Shown here in pieces: positions 1,359-31,374 of a stretch of 31,374 nucleotides of DNA. Made by a program: the position numbers and the translations under genes. The stretch is taken from positions 1-31,374 of the IMG/VR virus record IMGVR_UViG_3300043775_000010. The stretch is one strand, 5' to 3'. Source of the DNA: a virus. The notes beneath the pieces are model-generated. The model was not told the origin of the DNA, did not search any database, and saw nothing but the letters and a program-made list of their open reading frames with translations. Positions within the stretch are counted from its first letter, which is position 1, and every line of letters begins with the position of its first letter.

Positions 1359-1386
1359 AAAGGGGGCCTTGTGCCCCCTTTTCTTT
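1359..1386 (+). terminator. Rho-independent terminator after the major capsid gene
   Basis: AAAGGGGGC (1359-1367) pairs perfectly with GCCCCCTTT (1373-1381) around the 5-base loop CTTGT, and the sequence continues TTCTTTT. This is a textbook intrinsic terminator. It starts only a few bases after the capsid gene's tandem stop codons, so it would end most transcripts of the most abundant virion protein. Confidence 0.88.
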
Positions 1387-1406
1387 TGAGTTATATTAAA
1401 ACCATT

Positions 1407-1480
1407 CCGGGATTCTCCGGTGTATCTGACAGTCCCGGCTGACGACATGCAGACAGATACGCCCAACTTGCATGTAAGGA
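1407..1480 (+). ncRNA. Structured 5' leader: three interlocked stems (chained pseudoknots)
   Basis: Three helices are visible. S1 pairs 1407-1414 (CCGGGATT) with 1431-1438 (AGTCCCGG), 8 bp including one G-U. S2 pairs 1422-1428 (GTATCTG) with 1454-1460 (CAGATAC), 7 bp. S3 pairs 1445-1451 (ACATGCA) with 1469-1475 (TGCATGT), 7 bp. The S2 5' strand lies in the S1 loop and the S3 5' strand lies in the S2 loop, so the stems interlock as two successive H-type pseudoknots. Exactly two bases separate each new 5' strand from the previous 3' strand. S3 ends directly at the Shine-Dalgarno (AAGGA, 1476-1480) of the gene starting at 1488. A weak promoter-like TATATT (1392-1397) sits just upstream. From memory, a metagenomic RNA family named Mu-gpT-DE is associated with Mu gpT-like capsid genes and could be the same element; I could not check this. 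Confidence 0.75.
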
Positions 1481-1487
1481 AAAAATC

Positions 1488-3409: not shown

Positions 3410-3639
3410 AAGCGCCGCAGGCTTCTCTTAAAAACTGGGGCGACCAGAAATGGCGCACCAAGTCGGGAAAGCCTTCGTCAAAAACAGGTGAGCGGTATCT
3501 CCCTGAAGCGGCTATAAAGTCTTTGTCTTCTGCGGAGTATGCTGCAACAACCAAGGCCAAGCGCAAAGGTAAGGCGGCGGGGAAGCAGTTTGTGGCCCAG
3601 CCTAAAGGTATAGCGAAGAAAACGGCAGGATTTAGATAA
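3406..3639 (+). CDS. Small basic protein, DUF5872-like, TTG start
   Basis: The protein is 77 residues. The start is TTG at 3406, overlapping the previous stop as TTGA; the next internal ATG would remove most of the conserved part. The sequence contains SLKNWGDQKWRTKSGKPS, TGERYLPEAAIKSLS and AEYAATTKAKRKG, a pattern I associate with DUF5872, a small domain found in phages and large DNA viruses. Its function is unknown. Charge is strongly positive. The stop overlaps the ATG of the connector gene (TAATG), so it is translationally coupled to it. Confidence 0.7.
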   Translation: MKAPQASLKNWGDQKWRTKSGKPSSKTGERYLPEAAIKSLSSAEYAATTKAKRKGKAAGKQFVAQPKGIAKKTAGFR

Positions 3640-4574
3640 TGGCAACAACTTCTGGGTCAGCAGGCTTTAATTTAGACCTCACTGAAATAGTGGAGGAGGC
3701 GTTTGAGCGTGCGGGTTCAGAGTTGCGCACGGGGTATGACCTCAGAACGGCTCGCCGGTCGTTGAATTTACTGTTTGCTGACTGGGCAAACCGTGGCATC
3801 AACATGTGGACGTTTGAGCAGGGAACGATCCCACTAACTCAAGGCTTGAACACCTACGCAGTCCCTACAGATACGGTTGATTTGCTCGATCACGTCATCC
3901 GAACACAGGCAAATGTGGCTTCAACCCAGTCTGATTTGACAATCACACGCATCAGCGTCTCGACCTACGCCACACTACCCAACAAACTGACCCAAGCGCG
4001 GCCAATTCAGGTCTGGTATCAGCGTTTAGACGGTCAAATCATGCCAACAACGGCTGTTTTGGCAACAAGTGTCAACGCTACCGCAGACACAATCGTCCTT
4101 TCCAACGTAGTTGGGCTTCCTGCCATTGGGTACATTAACCTTGACAGCGAAACCATCTTCTACAACTACATTGATGGCAACACTTTGAGCAACTGCTTCC
4201 GTGGACAGAACGGAACGACGGCTGCTGCCCATACTGCAAGTGCCAATGCCAAGATTTACATCAATAACGTACCCCGCGTGACCATGTGGCCTACGCCTGA
4301 CGGCTCTCAGCCATATCAGTTTGTCTACTGGCGTATGCGTCGCGTGCAAGATGCCGGTAACGGTGTCAATGTGATGGATGTACCCTTCCGTTTTATCCCC
4401 TGTATGGTGGCTGGACTGTCTTACTACATCGCTTTGAAGGTGCCGGGCGGTATGGACAGGCTGGTGGTGCTCAAAGCGCAGTACGACGAGGCGTGGATGA
4501 CAGCGGCTGACGAGGATCAGGAACGCGCTGCGCTGCGTCTCGTGCCTAGGCAGATGTTCATTGGGGGTGGCTAA
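3639..4574 (+). CDS. Head-tail connector / tail adaptor-like protein
   Basis: The protein is 311 residues. The N-terminal region (EIVEEAFERAGSELRTGYD, then ARRSLNLLFADWANRGINMW) and the C-terminal part (PFRFIPCMVAGLSYYIALK, then LKAQYDEAWMTAADED) follow the pattern of podovirus connector/adaptor proteins (P22 gp4 or T7 gp11 type). These attach below the portal and link head to tail. A beta-rich insertion at residues about 149-207 (D-S-E-T-I-x-Y ... C-F-R-G-x-x-G-T) resembles an element in the nozzle-like protein at 16815. Start and stop both overlap neighbours (TAATG). The general role is supported by family resemblance and by the SU10-type adaptor close by; the exact subfamily is uncertain. 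Confidence 0.72.
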   Translation: MATTSGSAGFNLDLTEIVEEAFERAGSELRTGYDLRTARRSLNLLFADWANRGINMWTFEQGTIPLTQGLNTYAVPTDTVDLLDHVIRTQANVASTQSDLTITRISVSTYATLPNKLTQARPIQVWYQRLDGQIMPTTAVLATSVNATADTIVLSNVVGLPAIGYINLDSETIFYNYIDGNTLSNCFRGQNGTTAAAHTASANAKIYINNVPRVTMWPTPDGSQPYQFVYWRMRRVQDAGNGVNVMDVPFRFIPCMVAGLSYYIALKVPGGMDRLVVLKAQYDEAWMTAADEDQERAALRLVPRQMFIGGG

Positions 4575-5152: not shown

Positions 5153-5418
5153 TGGCTAAATTCAGCATGAAACGAGACGGCAAAGAAGTTGGCGGCGCCA
5201 GCGTCTATGCACAACCACACAATATGTCTGGTAAGGCTGTGGGGATTGAGTCCAACCCCGGCAAAATGCCAAACCGCAGCAAAGCCGACACGGTCAACAT
5301 GAGCGTTGGCAACATCAGCAAAAATGCTGGTGACAAGCAAGTCAAAACCGACGGCATTAAAATGCGTGGCGTTGGCGCGGCTATCAAAGGCACGATGTGT
5401 AGAGGCCCGATGGCATGA
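5152..5418 (+). CDS. Small conserved phage protein of unknown function
   Basis: The protein is 88 residues starting MAKFSMKRDGKEVGGASVY. It contains GIESNPGKMPNRSKAD, SVGNISKNAGDKQVKTDGI and a C-terminal KMRGVGAAIKGTMCRGPMA. I recognise the GIKMRG-x-G-A-A-x-K-G-T-M ending from small uncharacterised proteins of T7-like and related podoviruses. It is basic, Gly/Lys-rich and has no predicted membrane segment. It is coupled on both sides: TAATG at its start, and ATGA at 5415-5418 with the adaptor gene. A structural or assembly role is inferred from context only. Confidence 0.7.
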   Translation: MAKFSMKRDGKEVGGASVYAQPHNMSGKAVGIESNPGKMPNRSKADTVNMSVGNISKNAGDKQVKTDGIKMRGVGAAIKGTMCRGPMA

Positions 5419-6137
5419 ATTACACGACGTTGTATAACACGATTCAGTCGTACACGGAGAATCAGTTCCCCGATGTATACCTTGCGAGTGGAGCAACTGT
5501 ATCTGCAACTACGCAGATCAATACCTTCATTACGCAGGCTGAACAACGTATATACAACTCAGTTCAGTTCCCATCACTGCGTAAGAATGTGACCGGCACA
5601 ACAACTAGCAGCAACAAGTATTTGTCTTGTCCCGGAGATTTTCTTGCAACGTATTCAATGGCCGTGGTCGATGCTACGGGCGCTTACGAGTACTTGTTGA
5701 ACAAAGATGTAAATTTTATCCGGCAAGCATATCCAACCCCAACAGATACAGCCATCCCCAAGTATTACGCATTGTTTGGTCCAACAGTAAGCGGAGTAAC
5801 CATCTCAAACGAGTTGTCGTTTATTCTTGGCCCAACACCGGATACTGTCTACACAATTGAGCTTCACTATTACTACTACCCTGAGTCAATCACCACTGTA
5901 GCGTCTGGTCAAACATGGCTGGGCGACAACTTTGATACCGTGCTTCTATATGGCTCACTGGTTGAGGCTTATAGCTTTATGAAGGGTGAAGTCGATATCA
6001 TTGCTGGGTATGACGCCAAGTATAAAGAGGCTCTTGCAATGGCGCAACGTCTTGGCGATGGTATGGAACGCAGCGACGCATACCGCAGTGGGCAGTACCG
6101 CCAAGCGCCGTTGCCTCAGAATAACGGGGTGCGTTGA
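5415..6137 (+). CDS. Phage adaptor protein, SU10-type
   Basis: The protein is 240 residues. It begins NYTTLYNTIQSYTENQFPD and continues with INTFITQAEQRIYNSVQFP, the typical opening of the SU10/phiEco32-like adaptor family. The middle is beta-rich (GDFLATYSMAV, PKYYALFGP, YTIELHYYYYPESIT). The C-terminal helix runs LVEAYSFMKGEVDIIAGYD into YKEALAMAQR. In the family, twelve copies bind below the portal and form a neck ring joining head to short tail. Length and order of elements fit. The start overlaps the upstream stop (ATGA) and the stop overlaps the next ATG (TGATG). Together with the connector at 3639, this is the best indication of a podovirus-like particle. Confidence 0.82.
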   Translation: MNYTTLYNTIQSYTENQFPDVYLASGATVSATTQINTFITQAEQRIYNSVQFPSLRKNVTGTTTSSNKYLSCPGDFLATYSMAVVDATGAYEYLLNKDVNFIRQAYPTPTDTAIPKYYALFGPTVSGVTISNELSFILGPTPDTVYTIELHYYYYPESITTVASGQTWLGDNFDTVLLYGSLVEAYSFMKGEVDIIAGYDAKYKEALAMAQRLGDGMERSDAYRSGQYRQAPLPQNNGVR

Positions 6138-24467: not shown

Positions 24468-24483
24468 TAATTAGGAATTGTCG

Positions 24484-27400
24484 ATGCGAATTTACAGCGT
24501 ACAAGGCCCGGACGGACGGATCTATGATGTTGAGGGGCCGGATGACGCTTCGGAAGGCGCACTCATTGCATCTGTTAAGCGTCACGTTGCCGCGCAAGCA
24601 GCAGCACCAAAACCAGAAAGCGGTTTTATAGCTGCGTCCAAAGCTGGACTAGCTTCACTGAAATCTGACATTGCCGCCCTTGCGGGTAGGACGGGCTTGA
24701 TGGATGAGGCTGCGGCCAATAAGTACATCCAAGAACAAGAAGCCTACCGACAAAAGACATTCAAGCCAACGGAGACTTTTGGTGAAGCTCCTGTAACCAA
24801 GGCTCTTGAATTGTTCGGTGGATCGCTTCCATACATGGCCGCGCCCGTGGCTGCTGGTGTTGGTGCCTTGGCCGCACCCAGTGCAGCGATTGTTGCTCCT
24901 ATAGCTGCCGGCCTGACATCTGCCGCTCAGTTCACAGGCTCAAACCTATCTCGCCAAATGGCAGAGGGCAAGACTCTTGGACAAACAGAGTTGGGTTCTG
25001 CGGCTGCCGCAGCAATCCCACAGGCCGCATTGGATGTGTTTGCATTCAGGCTGCTGCCAGGTATTCGTGGCATCTTCGCCGCCGCCGGCAAAGAGGTTCC
25101 CGAGAAGTTACTGTTAGACGCTACAAAGCAGTCTGTTGGCAAGATCACGGCTGATTACACATTGGCCACCGGCAAAGCTGCTGGCATGGAAGGTTTGACC
25201 GAGGCAGGTCAACAGGTTCTGGAAAGGTTGCAAGCTGGTCTTGCTATCAATGATGAGAAAGCGCGAGACGAATACTTTGACAGTTTTGTTGGCGGAGCTG
25301 TACTGGGCGGAGCCTTGGCTCCTGCTGGTAGATATGTTGAGAGATCCCGCGAACAAGGCAAAGAGCAAGCAGCTCAAAGGGCTGAGAGCAAACGTTTGGC
25401 CGATGAGGCGAGAGCCATTCAAGCAGCGGAAGATGCCAAGGCACAAGAGTTATTGGCTGCTGGCCAAAGACGCGAAGCCGCCATGGAGCGTGCCCGCAAT
25501 ATGCCTGGGTTCACAGGCGTCACAGATCCAAATGCTGAACTTCTAAGCGCCGCCCGCGATCAGCGTGAGGCTGAAGCTGCCGCATTGGAGCAGGCAAGAC
25601 TTGAAAAGATTCAGGAAGTTGAGGCGACTCAGTTCCATGCAGACCCTCTTGAGAACCAGCGTCGCAAGACTGCTGAGTTGGCCAAGCTGGGTGAGATGCC
25701 TGAAGTTCAAGAGCCCGCGCCGCCTATTGAGATCATCACCCCTGAGCAGCAAGCTCAGATGAAAGCTGCTGAGATCCAAGGTCGCATGGCCGAAGCGCCT
25801 GGATTCACGGGTGGTCCTGGTGGCATCAATGAGTTAATGATGAGAAATGTCCGCGAGAGTCAAGCGGATCAGGAGCGCCAGCAGAAAGTTGATTTGCAGG
25901 CCAAGGTCGACGAGATTCGCAATACCGAATACAGCTCAGACCCAATTCAAAATGTAATGCTTCAGCAGAAGGAATTTGAGAAGCTGGGCTTCATGCCGTA
26001 TGTGCCTATTGAAACGCAGCTTGGCATGACGCCAGAGGGCAAAGAGCCTGCTGCCCCTAAAGCTGCCGCCGCGCCCAAGGGTGTATCCAAGGCCCAACTG
26101 CCAATCAAGGAAGAGCCTGTTTCGGAAGAGGTTGTCAAGCCAACCGAAACTGAGCCAATGGATGAACGCCAAAGGATTTTGGCTGAGCGCGCTGACGCGG
26201 TTGCAAAGATGACCATGATGCGCGAGGAGAACAAAGGCAATGTGCCGTCACTCCGCTCTAAGGCAGGCAAAGAATACGCCACCCTACAGGAGCGCGCCAA
26301 AGAGCTGTCAATTAGATTGATGAGCAAAGAGCCTCCTGAGTTTCAGGAAGCTACGCCTACCGAAGGCAAGCCCATGCCTGTCTCAAAAGAGTTTGAGGCA
26401 GAAACTGCGCAAATGCTCAAAGAGTCAAAGGGCATCACTGCGGCAATGAACAAAGAGAAGCGCGGTAGCTGGAGCTTGTGGCAGGCGTTGCGCGGCACCT
26501 TAGATCCATCTGAGGTAAACGACATCAGTCCCGACAAAGAGTACAGACTGTTGCGCGCCAAGGCTGGAAGACGCGGAGCTATTTTGGATGACGTCGTGGC
26601 GGATGGAAAGCTTGATGAATTCCTGCCGTACAACAACCGACATGACAATCCTGGGTTTGACCTGAAGGATGCGGTCGAGCACGTCAAAGAAAAGCTACGC
26701 CGCAAAGATTACCTCACCGAAGAAACCAATCAGGCGCTGAGAGAACTTGGTTACGCCAAGGATGAAATTGAAAAGCAGATTGATCTGCATCTAGGATTAA
26801 AGGACATCAACTATGAACTCCAAATTGCCTCCGATGAGCAAAGAGAAATTGATCTCGCTGCTGAGAAAGCTCCCGCCAAAGGCGAGGAAAGAGCTGCTGC
26901 TCCAAGCGAAAGAGCGAAAGCTGAACCAGCAGAGCGCGAAGTAAAGCCTGAGAAACTTTCTGATTTTTTAGATCAAGAAGGATTTGAAAGACTGCATGTT
27001 CCGCGAGTAAAAGAGCAGCCAAATCCAAGGGTGTATGTAGATAAGGGTGGTCAATGGCACCCAACATGGGAAAAGGATGGTGTTCGCATAGCTCTTGGTC
27101 AAGGCAGGGTGATCTACGCGGAGCCAGGAAAGCGCGATGTTGGCGTCTTCCAAGGCGAGCCTGAAGACATCGTTATTGAGTCATTGATGGTTGATCCGGA
27201 GGCAAGGAAGCAAGGCAAAGCTGCTGCCGCTTTAAAAACCTTAATGGATATTGCGGACAAGAAGGGTCAAACTTTATATGTTGAGCCAACCCCATTAGAG
27301 GCTGGCGCTATGGATCTTGCCCAACTTGTAAGCTTTTACAAAAAGGCAGGTTTTGAGCAGCAAGAGGCTGGGTATGACAAGGTGCTGGTGCGCAAGCCGG

Positions 27401-30400
27401 TAACAGAAGAGTTCAAGCTAAAGACTGAAACTGCCGACGAGGTTAGAGCCAAGCAGGCAGAAGCTGAGAAACGTGCCGCAGCAGAAGAGAAAGCTTTCAA
27501 AGAGGAAGAGGCTAAGGCCAAGGCTGATGCCGAAGTTGGTGAGTTCACTCTGACCGGAAGCAATCGACCTGCTGATGTGGCTGCCTCTCAAGGTCAGAAG
27601 GATATCTTTGCCGCTCCTGAAGAGAAGAAGCCCGAGCCAAAAGCAGAGCCGCAAGAAGATAGAACATATTTGTTCGTTCCATTTAAAGATAAAGATTTTG
27701 TAAAAGCTCGCGGGGCAAAGTGGGATGCGGATAAAAAGCTTTGGTATGCAACGCCTATTGAAACTGGCACGGCCAAAGGCGAAATTAACCTTGCCTTAAA
27801 GAGATTTATACCTTCAAAAGACTCTACCACCCGCGACAAAGCAATGGTAGAAGCTGCGGCTTTGAATGAGACAAAGGCGACTGGTAAAGAACACAAGGCC
27901 GTAAAAATTCCCGAGAGTGACGGCTATGCGGTAGCAAATGAAAAGGGCGAATTTCTCAATAAAGCAATCTATCGCGAGCAAGAAAGATTTGGAAAGAAAC
28001 CAGAAGAGCCTAAAGCAGAGAAAGAGCTGCCCCCAGTCCTGCCCATCCCCGATGACTACAAGCCCATCAGGGGCCGTCACCCACAGGTGGTAATGGCTGC
28101 GCGTGAGCTTGCCGCTGGCCGAATCAACAAAGCCCAGTACGACAAGTACGTTGACGCATACAAGCCAATTGGCAAGGTGCCAAACCCTGAGCCGCCTCTT
28201 ACTACCGATGCAATGGCCAAGGTTTTGAATAAGGCGCAAAAGGAAAAGATTAACCCTGTGATACCTGCCGGCACCAAGGTTGGTTTGCGCATGGATATCA
28301 ACGCACTAAATCGAGGTGATGCGCTTGGTATAAATGGTAGCGTTGTGGCCATCCATCCAGAGAACGATCCCAGCTCTCCAATCGGCTATGCAAGCGCGGC
28401 TCATATAACTGATGTCCAGTTTGTTATCCGATCTGAAAAGGCGGCAATGAAGATTGCTATGGGCAAGGATACAAAGAAGCCGCAGCAAACCGCTGAAGGC
28501 ATATGGAAGCCCGCGTCCCCTGGCAAGGTCTATGCTGACGTACTGAAGCACCTGAATGATCCAGCTTGGACTCAAGTTAGCCTTGATCCATTGCGTCATT
28601 CATACTTCTATGACCGCGAAACAAGGAAGCCTGTACTGTCTGCTGATGAAGTGTTTCAGATTGGCCGTTTCTTGTTGGCCAAGAACGTCAAGTTTGGCGA
28701 ACGCGAAGATTTCATGTACATGAAAGACATGGTTGAGCGTAATGCTACGCCTGCGCAAATTAAAGAAAAGGACGACTCAGTCAAACAATTTGGCGGAGAT
28801 GTCATTTACCAAGATGGAGACATCGGGGTATACAGAAACTTTAACTTGAACTATGAGCCAATTTATCGAGCGTTCAAAAAGGACAATCGCATACTGGTGA
28901 ATATTGAAGACTACACCGGCAAGATCTTTTCCGAAAAAGAAAAGACTCAAATCAAAGACGCCATTGACAAATGGAAAGCTGAAGACGCGGCAAGATACAA
29001 AAACGATCCGTTCGTTAAGTTTGACCAAGACGGCGTAGCGTTCTCACAAAGCATTTCTCCTGAGATAGCTGGCATTTTTGCCGGCTGGAAGAAGATGCTC
29101 AAGTTGGACAACAATATCTATCTCACCACCGTAGAGGATACTGCTGCCAACCGCTTGATGTTTACCGGCGAGCAAGCAACCATTGGCGCAGGCTCATTGC
29201 ACGAGGCAGGTGGCTATGCTCAGCGCCTGAAGAATGGGGATTACGTTATTGCGTTTAAGCCCAAGCAAAGCAAGGCCAGACTGCTTGAGGTGTTGGCTCA
29301 TGAGCTTGGACACATCCACGAGAAAGAGGTGTTCAACGATGCAAGCAAATCAACCAAGGACGCCATCAAAGTTGCTTATAGTGATTGGCTGAAGAAAACC
29401 AAAGGCATGTCTGCTTCGGAGTACGTGCAAGAATTGCGTGCGCGCGCCACTGGTAAAACAACTGTTGCGCCAGACATGCCAATTGAAAATGTTTCTAATT
29501 ACCAACAATATTGGTCATCGTTTGCTGAGTGGTACGCAGACCAAGTATCCAAGTGGGCAACTACCCAACAAAAGCCGCTGACCGTTGTCGAGAAGTTTTT
29601 TGCCAAGCTGGGCGCTGCCATGAAGGCGTTCTATGCCAAGCTGCGCGGCTCCAAGTACTTGCCCAACGAAACGCTCAAGAAATACCTTGATCGCGTTACC
29701 GATGCTGCGATTGACGCAACCCCAGACACAAGCATGCAAATGCCACTGGTATCAGACCAGATGGAATTGAACTTCATGAAGGAAACGATTAAGGCCAAAG
29801 CGCAAGAGGTGCTGCAAACGCGTGCGCCCATGAACGTCAAGGCATTTGAAGGCTTGGATGAAGATGTCGTGGCCGATGTCAACAAGAACTTCTTTGCGCC
29901 CAACCTGACGATCATTGATCGCATGGAGCAAAACAAAGGCCGAGCGTTTGAGTGGCTTGCCCAAAAGACTGTGGATGAATTCCGCTCAGCCAAGACCTAC
30001 TCACCTATGGGGCACATGCAGGCCACGCTGTCCAAAGATACCGGCGGAGCGTTGGAGAACCTGCTTTATCACGGCCATGTGACCATGAACCAAGGCGCTC
30101 TTGATGTCATTGCTGACGAGAACAAGAAGGGCTTCATTGATTCGGTCAAGCCTTTGGGGCAGGAGCTGGATCGCTGGCAAGTTTGGATGGCACTGAGCCG
30201 CGAAGCAAATCTGCCTGACGAGAAGCGCTCTTCAAGACTGGATGACTTGGTTGCCAAGAAGAATGACTTCGTCAAGGGAACTATCAATGGTCGGCCACGC
30301 GCAGAGGTCTATGAGCAAGCCCGTAGAGACGTAATGGCGCTGAACAGGTCGGTGCTGAATGTGGCGCTGATGAATGGCCTGATTGATCGTCAAGCCTATC

Positions 30401-31374
30401 AACGCTTTTCAAACGACATGTTCTACATCCCGTTCTATCGGGCGATGGAAGATGGCCAACTCGAATCCATCCGTACGGCGTCACGCCTGTCCAATCAGCA
30501 GTTTTCCAAGATGCTCAAAGGCCAAAGCGACAAGCCGTTTGGCGACCTGATGGAGAACACCTTGCGCAACTGGAGCCACATCCTGTCTGCGTCCATGAAG
30601 AACTTAGCGTCTAACACTATCTTGGAAGATGCCCGCGAGCAGGCTGTTGTTGTGCCTGCGCTCAAGCCCGGCATGGAGTGGAGGACTGATGCGGACGGTA
30701 AGAATGGCCGCGTGGTTAACTCTATTACGGGCAACATAGTTGGCGACGGCAAGCTAGTTCAGGTTCGCGCAAACGCAGCCGGCGAAGATGAGTTGGTATC
30801 CATGACCGAGTCCAAGCCAGGTTCCAAAGATATCGTCAAGACGCAGGTCGATGGCGTGACCACCTATCACCATATCAATGACCCGCTGTTGCTTGAGTCG
30901 ATTGGCATGATTACAGAGCTAGGCCCACGCGGCCTTGCTGTGGATATCATGCGGCCATTCAAAGACCTGTTGCGCTTTGGTGTGACGATGTCTCCTACAT
31001 TCAAGGCATACAACTTAATCAGGGAATCCATCCAGTCTGCCGCACTGTCGGACTTGAGTGGCAACCTTGTGAAGAACGTGTATAGCGGCCTGTATGACTC
31101 AGGCAGGGGCTCTCCAATCTACAGATCAGCATTGGCTGGCGGCGCTGTATTTAACTTTGGCACAGTGCTAGAGGGTGATCGTGCGCAAGCAATTAAAAAG
31201 TTGATTGATCGCGGTGTAGACGAGGCCACTATTCTTGATACTCCCGAAAAGGTCAAGAGCATGTTTACTAAGTCGTGGCGCTATTACGAGGACTTGGGTA
31301 ACAAGGCTGAGAATGCAAACAGGATTGCCCTGTACAAGCAATTGATGGAGAGCGGTAAGACTCACTTGGAAGCA
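24484..31374 (+). CDS. Giant polyvalent protein (3' partial)
   Basis: The frame is open from ATG 24484 (AGGA at 24473-24476) to the window end, giving at least 2297 residues. N-terminal MRIYSVQGPDGRIYDVEGPD precedes a hydrophobic region (residues about 115-185) and long charged helices. A GNAT-like domain lies near 885-970, with R908-K-Q-G-K-A913 as acetyl-CoA loop. A DUF5710-like segment (VPFKDKDFVKARGAKWDAD) is near 1063-1081. A zinc-metallopeptidase motif HELGH (H1606-H1610) follows, with possible third ligand E1682 in FAEWYADQ. From about 2129 an LPD38-like domain (FKAYNLIRESIQSAALS) runs to the cut end. In established work on polyvalent proteins, such fusions are packaged and injected with DNA to act in the host. 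This is the last gene of the ejection set. Confidence 0.8.
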   Translation, partial: MRIYSVQGPDGRIYDVEGPDDASEGALIASVKRHVAAQAAAPKPESGFIAASKAGLASLKSDIAALAGRTGLMDEAAANKYIQEQEAYRQKTFKPTETFGEAPVTKALELFGGSLPYMAAPVAAGVGALAAPSAAIVAPIAAGLTSAAQFTGSNLSRQMAEGKTLGQTELGSAAAAAIPQAALDVFAFRLLPGIRGIFAAAGKEVPEKLLLDATKQSVGKITADYTLATGKAAGMEGLTEAGQQVLERLQAGLAINDEKARDEYFDSFVGGAVLGGALAPAGRYVERSREQGKEQAAQRAESKRLADEARAIQAAEDAKAQELLAAGQRREAAMERARNMPGFTGVTDPNAELLSAARDQREAEAAALEQARLEKIQEVEATQFHADPLENQRRKTAELAKLGEMPEVQEPAPPIEIITPEQQAQMKAAEIQGRMAEAPGFTGGPGGINELMMRNVRESQADQERQQKVDLQAKVDEIRNTEYSSDPIQNVMLQQKEFEKLGFMPYVPIETQLGMTPEGKEPAAPKAAAAPKGVSKAQLPIKEEPVSEEVVKPTETEPMDERQRILAERADAVAKMTMMREENKGNVPSLRSKAGKEYATLQERAKELSIRLMSKEPPEFQEATPTEGKPMPVSKEFEAETAQMLKESKGITAAMNKEKRGSWSLWQALRGTLDPSEVNDISPDKEYRLLRAKAGRRGAILDDVVADGKLDEFLPYNNRHDNPGFDLKDAVEHVKEKLRRKDYLTEETNQALRELGYAKDEIEKQIDLHLGLKDINYELQIASDEQREIDLAAEKAPAKGEERAAAPSERAKAEPAEREVKPEKLSDFLDQEGFERLHVPRVKEQPNPRVYVDKGGQWHPTWEKDGVRIALGQGRVIYAEPGKRDVGVFQGEPEDIVIESLMVDPEARKQGKAAAALKTLMDIADKKGQTLYVEPTPLEAGAMDLAQLVSFYKKAGFEQQEAGYDKVLVRKPVTEEFKLKTETADEVRAKQAEAEKRAAAEEKAFKEEEAKAKADAEVGEFTLTGSNRPADVAASQGQKDIFAAPEEKKPEPKAEPQEDRTYLFVPFKDKDFVKARGAKWDADKKLWYATPIETGTAKGEINLALKRFIPSKDSTTRDKAMVEAAALNETKATGKEHKAVKIPESDGYAVANEKGEFLNKAIYREQERFGKKPEEPKAEKELPPVLPIPDDYKPIRGRHPQVVMAARELAAGRINKAQYDKYVDAYKPIGKVPNPEPPLTTDAMAKVLNKAQKEKINPVIPAGTKVGLRMDINALNRGDALGINGSVVAIHPENDPSSPIGYASAAHITDVQFVIRSEKAAMKIAMGKDTKKPQQTAEGIWKPASPGKVYADVLKHLNDPAWTQVSLDPLRHSYFYDRETRKPVLSADEVFQIGRFLLAKNVKFGEREDFMYMKDMVERNATPAQIKEKDDSVKQFGGDVIYQDGDIGVYRNFNLNYEPIYRAFKKDNRILVNIEDYTGKIFSEKEKTQIKDAIDKWKAEDAARYKNDPFVKFDQDGVAFSQSISPEIAGIFAGWKKMLKLDNNIYLTTVEDTAANRLMFTGEQATIGAGSLHEAGGYAQRLKNGDYVIAFKPKQSKARLLEVLAHELGHIHEKEVFNDASKSTKDAIKVAYSDWLKKTKGMSASEYVQELRARATGKTTVAPDMPIENVSNYQQYWSSFAEWYADQVSKWATTQQKPLTVVEKFFAKLGAAMKAFYAKLRGSKYLPNETLKKYLDRVTDAAIDATPDTSMQMPLVSDQMELNFMKETIKAKAQEVLQTRAPMNVKAFEGLDEDVVADVNKNFFAPNLTIIDRMEQNKGRAFEWLAQKTVDEFRSAKTYSPMGHMQATLSKDTGGALENLLYHGHVTMNQGALDVIADENKKGFIDSVKPLGQELDRWQVWMALSREANLPDEKRSSRLDDLVAKKNDFVKGTINGRPRAEVYEQARRDVMALNRSVLNVALMNGLIDRQAYQRFSNDMFYIPFYRAMEDGQLESIRTASRLSNQQFSKMLKGQSDKPFGDLMENTLRNWSHILSASMKNLASNTILEDAREQAVVVPALKPGMEWRTDADGKNGRVVNSITGNIVGDGKLVQVRANAAGEDELVSMTESKPGSKDIVKTQVDGVTTYHHINDPLLLESIGMITELGPRGLAVDIMRPFKDLLRFGVTMSPTFKAYNLIRESIQSAALSDLSGNLVKNVYSGLYDSGRGSPIYRSALAGGAVFNFGTVLEGDRAQAIKKLIDRGVDEATILDTPEKVKSMFTKSWRYYEDLGNKAENANRIALYKQLMESGKTHLEA

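Follow-up and report, generated by a model that had tools for sequence, protein, structure and literature searches.

A four-helix kissing-hairpin RNA related to Mu-gpT-DE precedes a probable capsid-decoration gene in freshwater and marine phages

Which gene does an interlocked RNA structure serve when it lies between a phage capsid gene and the next virion gene, and what might it do there? The question is raised by positions 1407-1475 of the viral DNA analysed here (IMG/VR record IMGVR_UViG_3300043775_000010, positions 1 to 31,374; this whole stretch of 31,374 nucleotides is called the window). To our knowledge, few complex pseudoknotted leaders have been described for phage structural genes. 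A sequence-only reading of the window had proposed three interlocking helices forming two consecutive H-type pseudoknots, had noted their place right after a gpT-like capsid gene, and had named the RNA motif Mu-gpT-DE as a possible relative.

The locus and its interlocked helices

The layout on the plus strand is a gpT-like capsid gene, a terminator, the element and an open reading frame at 1488-2036. The upstream neighbour (436-1353) encodes a Mu gpT-like major capsid protein, as judged by matches to Pfam Phage_capsid_4 (2.4e-13), with Mu-like_gpT as a further match (3.3e-09), and to PHROG 371, major head protein (8.4e-25). It is followed by an intrinsic terminator (1359-1386) consisting of a stem-loop at 1359-1381 and a T-rich tail, and then by a putative -10 box, TATATT (1392-1397), which lies 9 nt before the first helix of the element and is spaced 17 nt from a putative -35 box, TTGTGC (1369-1374), in the terminator loop. 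This sharing of bases between the -35 box and the terminator loop (window 1359-1397) recurs among relatives. The Shine-Dalgarno sequence AAGGA (1476-1480) precedes the gene for P0002, a protein of 182 aa and probably a capsid spike or decoration protein. Elsewhere in the window, a small open reading frame 3' of this gene (2354-2611) matches DUF6321 and PHROG families of unknown function, two others (3639-4574 and 5415-6137) each match the SU10 head-tail adaptor family, and a frame of at least 2299 aa (24478-31374), cut off where the window stops, carries a GNAT acetyltransferase domain and DUF5710 and looks like a large phage protein of several domains.

All three pairings of the sequence-only reading are present in the sequence exactly where it had placed them, as are the 2-nt spacings at both crossings and the position of the third stem directly before AAGGA; what changes is the extent of the helices and their topology. 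Helix S1, put at 8 bp, stands as 1407-1412 paired with 1433-1438 (5-6 bp), since its two inner pairs, 1413-1432 and 1414-1431, are not conserved and the 3' bases 1431-1432 belong to another helix, S4. Helix S2 is real but longer than the 7 bp proposed, running for 10 bp from 1419-1428 to 1454-1463, and S3, likewise given as 7 bp, is better placed at 1445-1452 paired with 1468-1475 (6-8 bp), its last base lying directly before the Shine-Dalgarno sequence. The fourth helix, S4, is a 3-bp hairpin in the window (1430-1432 paired with 1439-1441), and its 6-nt loop (1433-1438) is the 3' strand of S1. The order of S1, S2 and S3 is ABACBC, the kissing-hairpin topology, in which a loop-loop helix connects two hairpins; through S4, the S1 3' strand becomes a docked hairpin loop as well, the second in the fold. 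The picture of two successive H-type pseudoknots thus gives way to a kissing-hairpin chain with a fourth covarying helix. The S1 hairpin, the S3 hairpin and the 10-bp loop-loop helix S2 follow one another in the strand order of a plain kissing pair, from which the element differs in that the S1 3' strand is also the loop of S4.

The joining bases are conserved as well. A single A between S2 and S4 (1429), which corresponds to position 6 of the Rfam model of Mu-gpT-DE, is found in 160 of 195 relatives, the AC after S4 (1442-1443) in 141 of 195, and a conserved GA (1452-1453) stands just before the S2 3' strand, which itself lies within the S3 loop. The geometry is constant across relatives, with S1 of 5-6 bp, S2 of about 10 bp, S3 of 6-8 bp and S4 of 3-4 bp around a loop that holds the S1 3' strand and measures 6 nt in 163 of 195; the S1 3' end adjoins the S4 3' strand in 192 of 195 elements. 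The S1 5' strand also has a local alternative partner, S1alt (1417-1420, complementary to 1407-1410), present in 102 of 195 elements where about 8 would be expected from shuffled loops. S1alt shows compensatory changes, varies together with S1 and is missing in CTAGG-type relatives; it may be a folding intermediate or a switch, although a switch would not be general, as about 48% of relatives are without it.

Comparative support for the fold

Within a single sequence the element is notable but not overwhelming, and the proof is comparative. A descriptor based on the finding and on its relatives gives the window a four-helix score of 63, a value reached by none of 2000 dinucleotide shuffles of 1386-1490 (maximum 58.5), and sliding windows over both strands return the element as the top site with a runner-up at 58.5. 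The ordinary folding energy of the region is unremarkable (z = 0.49), because minimum-free-energy folding cannot represent a pseudoknotted fold and is uninformative here.

Covariation was evaluated against a tree-based null that was modelled on the idea behind R-scape and is not R-scape itself. In a structure-blind alignment of 225 elements, not fitted to any fold, seven pairs are significant, five in S2 (a count that includes 1420-1462, which falls within S2 only at its corrected length), one in S3 and one in S4 (1431-1440, E about 2e-6). In a structural alignment thinned to 61 sequences less than 80% identical, 21 pairs are significant, of which 20 lie in one of the four helices (three in S1, nine in S2, six in S3 and two in S4) and one lies elsewhere. 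All four helices therefore covary, S2, S3 and S4 even in the unfitted alignment and S1 with the structural alignment, the delay for S1 being explained by MAFFT, which alone places the S1 5' strand one base off. An upstream complement to the S4 loop is found in 193 of 195 elements (1.9 expected), although these rows were chosen by a descriptor that includes S1. In a nearly gap-free set (n = 14), 94.3% of cells are paired, against 31-44% for slid partners, and double changes occur at 16 pairs; the 195 distinct homologous elements together display extensive compensatory change. Such changes affect S1, S2 and S3, not S1 alone, and the proposal of a structured RNA at the Shine-Dalgarno sequence of a virion gene is borne out by the covariation of all three of its stems. 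The unfitted alignment further contains 262 G-U pairs against 43 A-C mismatches, an excess that points to a plus-strand RNA under selection and that, with the constant orientation to the gene, rules out a DNA-level site.

Kinship, distribution and the gene that the element accompanies

Mu-gpT-DE exists in Rfam as RF03012 (PMC7657543). An Rfam scan of the window returned no RF03012 match even at E<=10, and the weak matches to other families at that threshold (SorX, SraG and others), which lie mostly on the terminator, were discarded. The RF03012 model likewise found no match in 20 loci of the window's type and gave only weak matches of up to 15 bits in 50 records, none of which exceeded the gathering score of 49 bits. 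As a positive control, the RF03012 member of Roseobacter phage CRP-902 scores 72.3 bits directly before the decoration gene; the locus in the window has the layout of CRP-902, with the element following a gpT-like capsid gene and preceding the next gene. Relatives of the CRP-902 decoration gene yield seven RF03012 members in 20 loci, and sibling loci carry the four-helix form in front of the same gene.

The suggested kinship thus holds for a core common to both, though the Rfam model does not match the element. The Rfam consensus line reads CCUG/CAGG around an A, a CAG..CUG hairpin and AC...GA, which is the same succession of S2, single A, S4 hairpin, AC...GA and S2 3' strand as in the element, and the two share a site after a gpT-like capsid gene and a downstream family that begins MATSTFSGP... 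or MARTTFQGP.... A strict descriptor of this core matches the window and 119 of the 195 four-helix elements (0 expected), and 27 of 53 regions upstream of the marine gene family, RF03012 members among them, where 0.05 would be expected. However, the RF03012 model comprises only two nested helices in 53 nt, whereas the element adds S1, the 5' strand of which docks in the S4 loop, and a further hairpin, S3, around the S2 3' strand. The connection to the Shine-Dalgarno sequence differs accordingly: in RF03012 the 3' strand of the outer helix, CAGG (positions 39-42, paired), is part of the Shine-Dalgarno sequence CAGGAG, whereas in the window 12 nt separate the S2 3' strand from AAGGA, and it is S3 that abuts the Shine-Dalgarno sequence. 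Intermediates are found in six loci (L430, L435, L436, L447, L451 and L457), which have S1, S2 and S4 with no visible S3, and in which the joiner AGCCAAGA is close to UAGCCAcGA of RF03012. Three grades therefore appear: S2 with S4 (RF03012), S1 with S2 and S4, and the full set including S3 (the window). Upstream of the marine cement-like gene, the leaders of L467, L481 and L498 are pared down to a single hairpin of the GACTGCGAAAGCAGAC type where S4 would lie, which may be the class in its most reduced form, and L446 has a TTCG loop and a covarying outer helix, CTTG/CAAG. On the basis of the shared site, gene and core, we infer from these sequences that the element and RF03012 are of common descent. 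Because core, site and gene are common and intermediates exist, the element is best described as a new, more elaborate variant related to the orphan class RF03012, though the model of that class misses it.

With the capsid protein and the downstream protein as queries, IMG/VR yielded 160 loci, to which 240 were added from three other downstream gene families. The same arrangement is present in 88 of 122 unique regions downstream of the capsid gene and in nearly every unique region upstream of those three gene families, and so the element occurs in hundreds of freshwater and marine phage contigs, with phage DSL-LC04 and, clearly, the cultured Pelagibacter phage HTVC023P among the isolates. A convincing element was not found in Caulobacter, Alcaligenes and Manatee Spring phages, whose capsids are more distant; a score of 62.5 in Planktothrix phage Pag-Yong1 was left out of the count, since the GC-rich stretch concerned may be a terminator stem. 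Among capsid loci without the four-helix element, L003, L036, L051 and L064 carry a different conserved gap, GTAGGAT...TTGCAGCGCCGTGCTGC...TTTTTACAG, after the capsid gene and before a MEFTLTIDFGFGE gene, which looks like another promoter or hairpin leader.

The element goes with the downstream gene, not with the capsid gene. In 11 loci with about 730-1325 nt between the capsid and decoration genes, it remains 79-91 nt before the start codon; since it stays beside the downstream gene despite DNA inserted after the capsid gene, it belongs to the former. HTVC027P and 023Pt_psg01 have a variant in front of the same gene family, at a greater distance from the capsid gene. Seven loci (L007, L012, L044, L049, L058, L070 and L074) have, between the capsid gene and the next gene, a gene with the motif KTRAEAKATGATHYFTG.PC that may encode a mobile endonuclease of the HNH type; judged by contig identity, the element is still found further downstream on some of these contigs (for example L323 on the contig of L012).

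Structure prediction gives an indication of what this gene encodes. No sequence in Pfam, PHROGs or PDB matches P0002, and its structure model is of low confidence (mean pLDDT 58); the best match of this predicted fold is the capsid spike of Pseudomonas phage Pa223 (9ny6_C, E 5.2e-4). Among the matches to the model of the marine homologue (pLDDT 81) are the cement protein of Helicobacter phage KHP40 and capsid chains of two other phages, cyanophage Pam1 and Ralstonia phage GP4, and the homologous position in DSL-LC04 carries the annotation 'cement protein'. These model matches and that annotation strongly suggest that the product is a capsid spike or cement (decoration) protein, and that the element leads a capsid-decoration gene. 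The downstream proteins form about 17 similarity clusters, most with an N-terminal TTFxGP tag or a related one; a large cluster, MALSTTQSIWRSGGG, is without the tag, yet has the element.

A putative role in translation initiation, and its alternatives

The position of the element relative to transcription and translation signals bears on its function. A TATAAT box (<=1 mismatch) 7-10 nt before S1 accounts for 151 occurrences among 183 unique upstream sequences, with shuffles giving about 2 per position, and TTGTGC is the commonest -35 sequence in relatives. In the window itself TTGTGC is weak taken alone, and a promoter consensus scan found no promoter at this site. The comparative signal strongly suggests a promoter before S1, and the position of the -10 box would place the start of transcription beside S1, so that in most freshwater relatives the element is probably the 5' end of the downstream-gene mRNA. 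Such a promoter is not universal. Some marine relatives (L430, L435 and L436) have no -10 box, their elements starting immediately behind the terminator U-tract, and the predicted start fails for marine type II elements, which directly adjoin the terminator tract. At the other end, measured from the end of S3, the Shine-Dalgarno core begins at -5 to +1 nt in 172 of 194 relatives; S3 overlaps it in 50 of 194, while in 122 it is adjacent and not paired, and the start codon follows S3 by 10-14 nt in most relatives. A frameshift element was rejected because the structure lies wholly between stop and start codon (the capsid stop is 53 nt upstream of S1), as was a transcription attenuator, no terminator having been found between element and gene.

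Since the fold usually ends on or beside the Shine-Dalgarno sequence, by way of S3 in the window and of the S2 3' strand in RF03012, control of translation initiation is the best account. We consider it reasonably probable that the element is a cis-acting RNA leader whose interlocked fold sets the frequency of ribosome starts on the decoration gene. The RNA would fold as the 5' end of a new mRNA, whose first base would, in most freshwater relatives, lie a few bases upstream of S1; S4 would form a small hairpin, into the loop of which the S1 5' end would dock, the S2 strand between S1 and S4 would pair with the loop of the next hairpin, and the S3 hairpin would close against or over the Shine-Dalgarno sequence. 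The fold would in this way fix the rate of initiation on the decoration gene and uncouple it from the capsid gene just upstream. We infer that the fold restricts the entry of ribosomes, and does not promote it, and that selection has kept it for this role; a fold beside the Shine-Dalgarno sequence could, however, assist initiation as a standby site rather than block it. Precedents exist in both senses. The leader of gene 32 in T4, T2 and RB69 has a pseudoknot upstream of the ribosome-binding site that controls a phage protein (PMC3014915), and resembles the element as a conserved pseudoknot in a phage mRNA leader near that site, but it is a single H-type pseudoknot located 67 nt upstream of the start codon and bound cooperatively by gp32, unrelated to the element in sequence, gene and topology; regulation by the element is putative. 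A 2010 review of T4 regarded the gene 32 pseudoknot as possibly the only viral example of a pseudoknot in translational autoregulation (PMC3014915). In the opposite sense, the pseudoknot at the 5' end of the E. coli tisB leader governs initiation by ribosome standby (PMC7708055); it acts about 100 nt from a sequestered ribosome-binding site, where it promotes 30S/S1 binding, and the element, also at a putative mRNA 5' end, has no sequence or gene relation to it.

A narrower form of the leader explanation has the S2/S4 core as the binding site of a virion protein, either the decoration protein, via its shared N-terminal tag, or the capsid protein, so that an excess of that protein would repress translation and set the decoration-to-capsid stoichiometry. 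By analogy with the gene 32 leader (PMC3014915), such an operator is possible but doubtful. The unpaired joiners A, AC and GA persist in RF03012-type and four-helix elements while helix sequences change freely, a hint of a binding site, and the gene in question probably encodes a decoration protein, required in ratio to capsid; against such an operator, the element stands before all of the about 17 downstream-protein clusters, the tagless MALSTTQSIWRSGGG cluster included. Structured 5' ends stabilise bacterial mRNAs, as in ompA-type leaders, and S1, with a predicted transcription start within a few nt in most relatives, might likewise shield a late, abundant mRNA from 5'-end-dependent decay, its closeness to the Shine-Dalgarno sequence being incidental. 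This is unlikely, as a plain stem-loop would suffice, S3 beside the Shine-Dalgarno sequence and the conservation of the joining bases would be left unexplained, and some marine relatives have no visible start at S1.

It is highly improbable that the element is the 3' end of the capsid transcript or an independent small RNA. Its place just 3' of the capsid gene and terminator, directly after the U-tract in some marine relatives, would fit this, as would the Rfam entry type of Mu-gpT-DE ('Gene; sRNA'), but insertions behind the capsid gene leave it beside the downstream gene, its distance to the start codon is constant, and HTVC027P and 023Pt_psg01 have their variant in front of the same gene family at a site away from the capsid gene. 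A metabolite or ion riboswitch, with the kissing-loop fold as aptamer, is the least probable account; a complex pseudoknotted leader with conserved joining bases and a possible alternative pairing, S1alt, might be expected of one, yet in the loci examined the element occurs only before virion genes, with no metabolic gene association seen, and the window has no match to an Rfam riboswitch.

For the phages that carry it, the broader meaning of the leader can be put only tentatively: a widespread class, defined by a kissing-hairpin fold with a loop-docked 5' end, might serve as a translational operator that senses a virion protein and sets the ratio of decoration protein to capsid, and as part of that operator reading it is conceivable, and no likelier, that Rfam holds only the simplest form of the class. 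The orphan Mu-gpT-DE family gains a place, as the 5' leader of a probable capsid-decoration gene, together with a common core and a full architecture, and control of decoration-to-capsid stoichiometry in tailed phages becomes directly testable.
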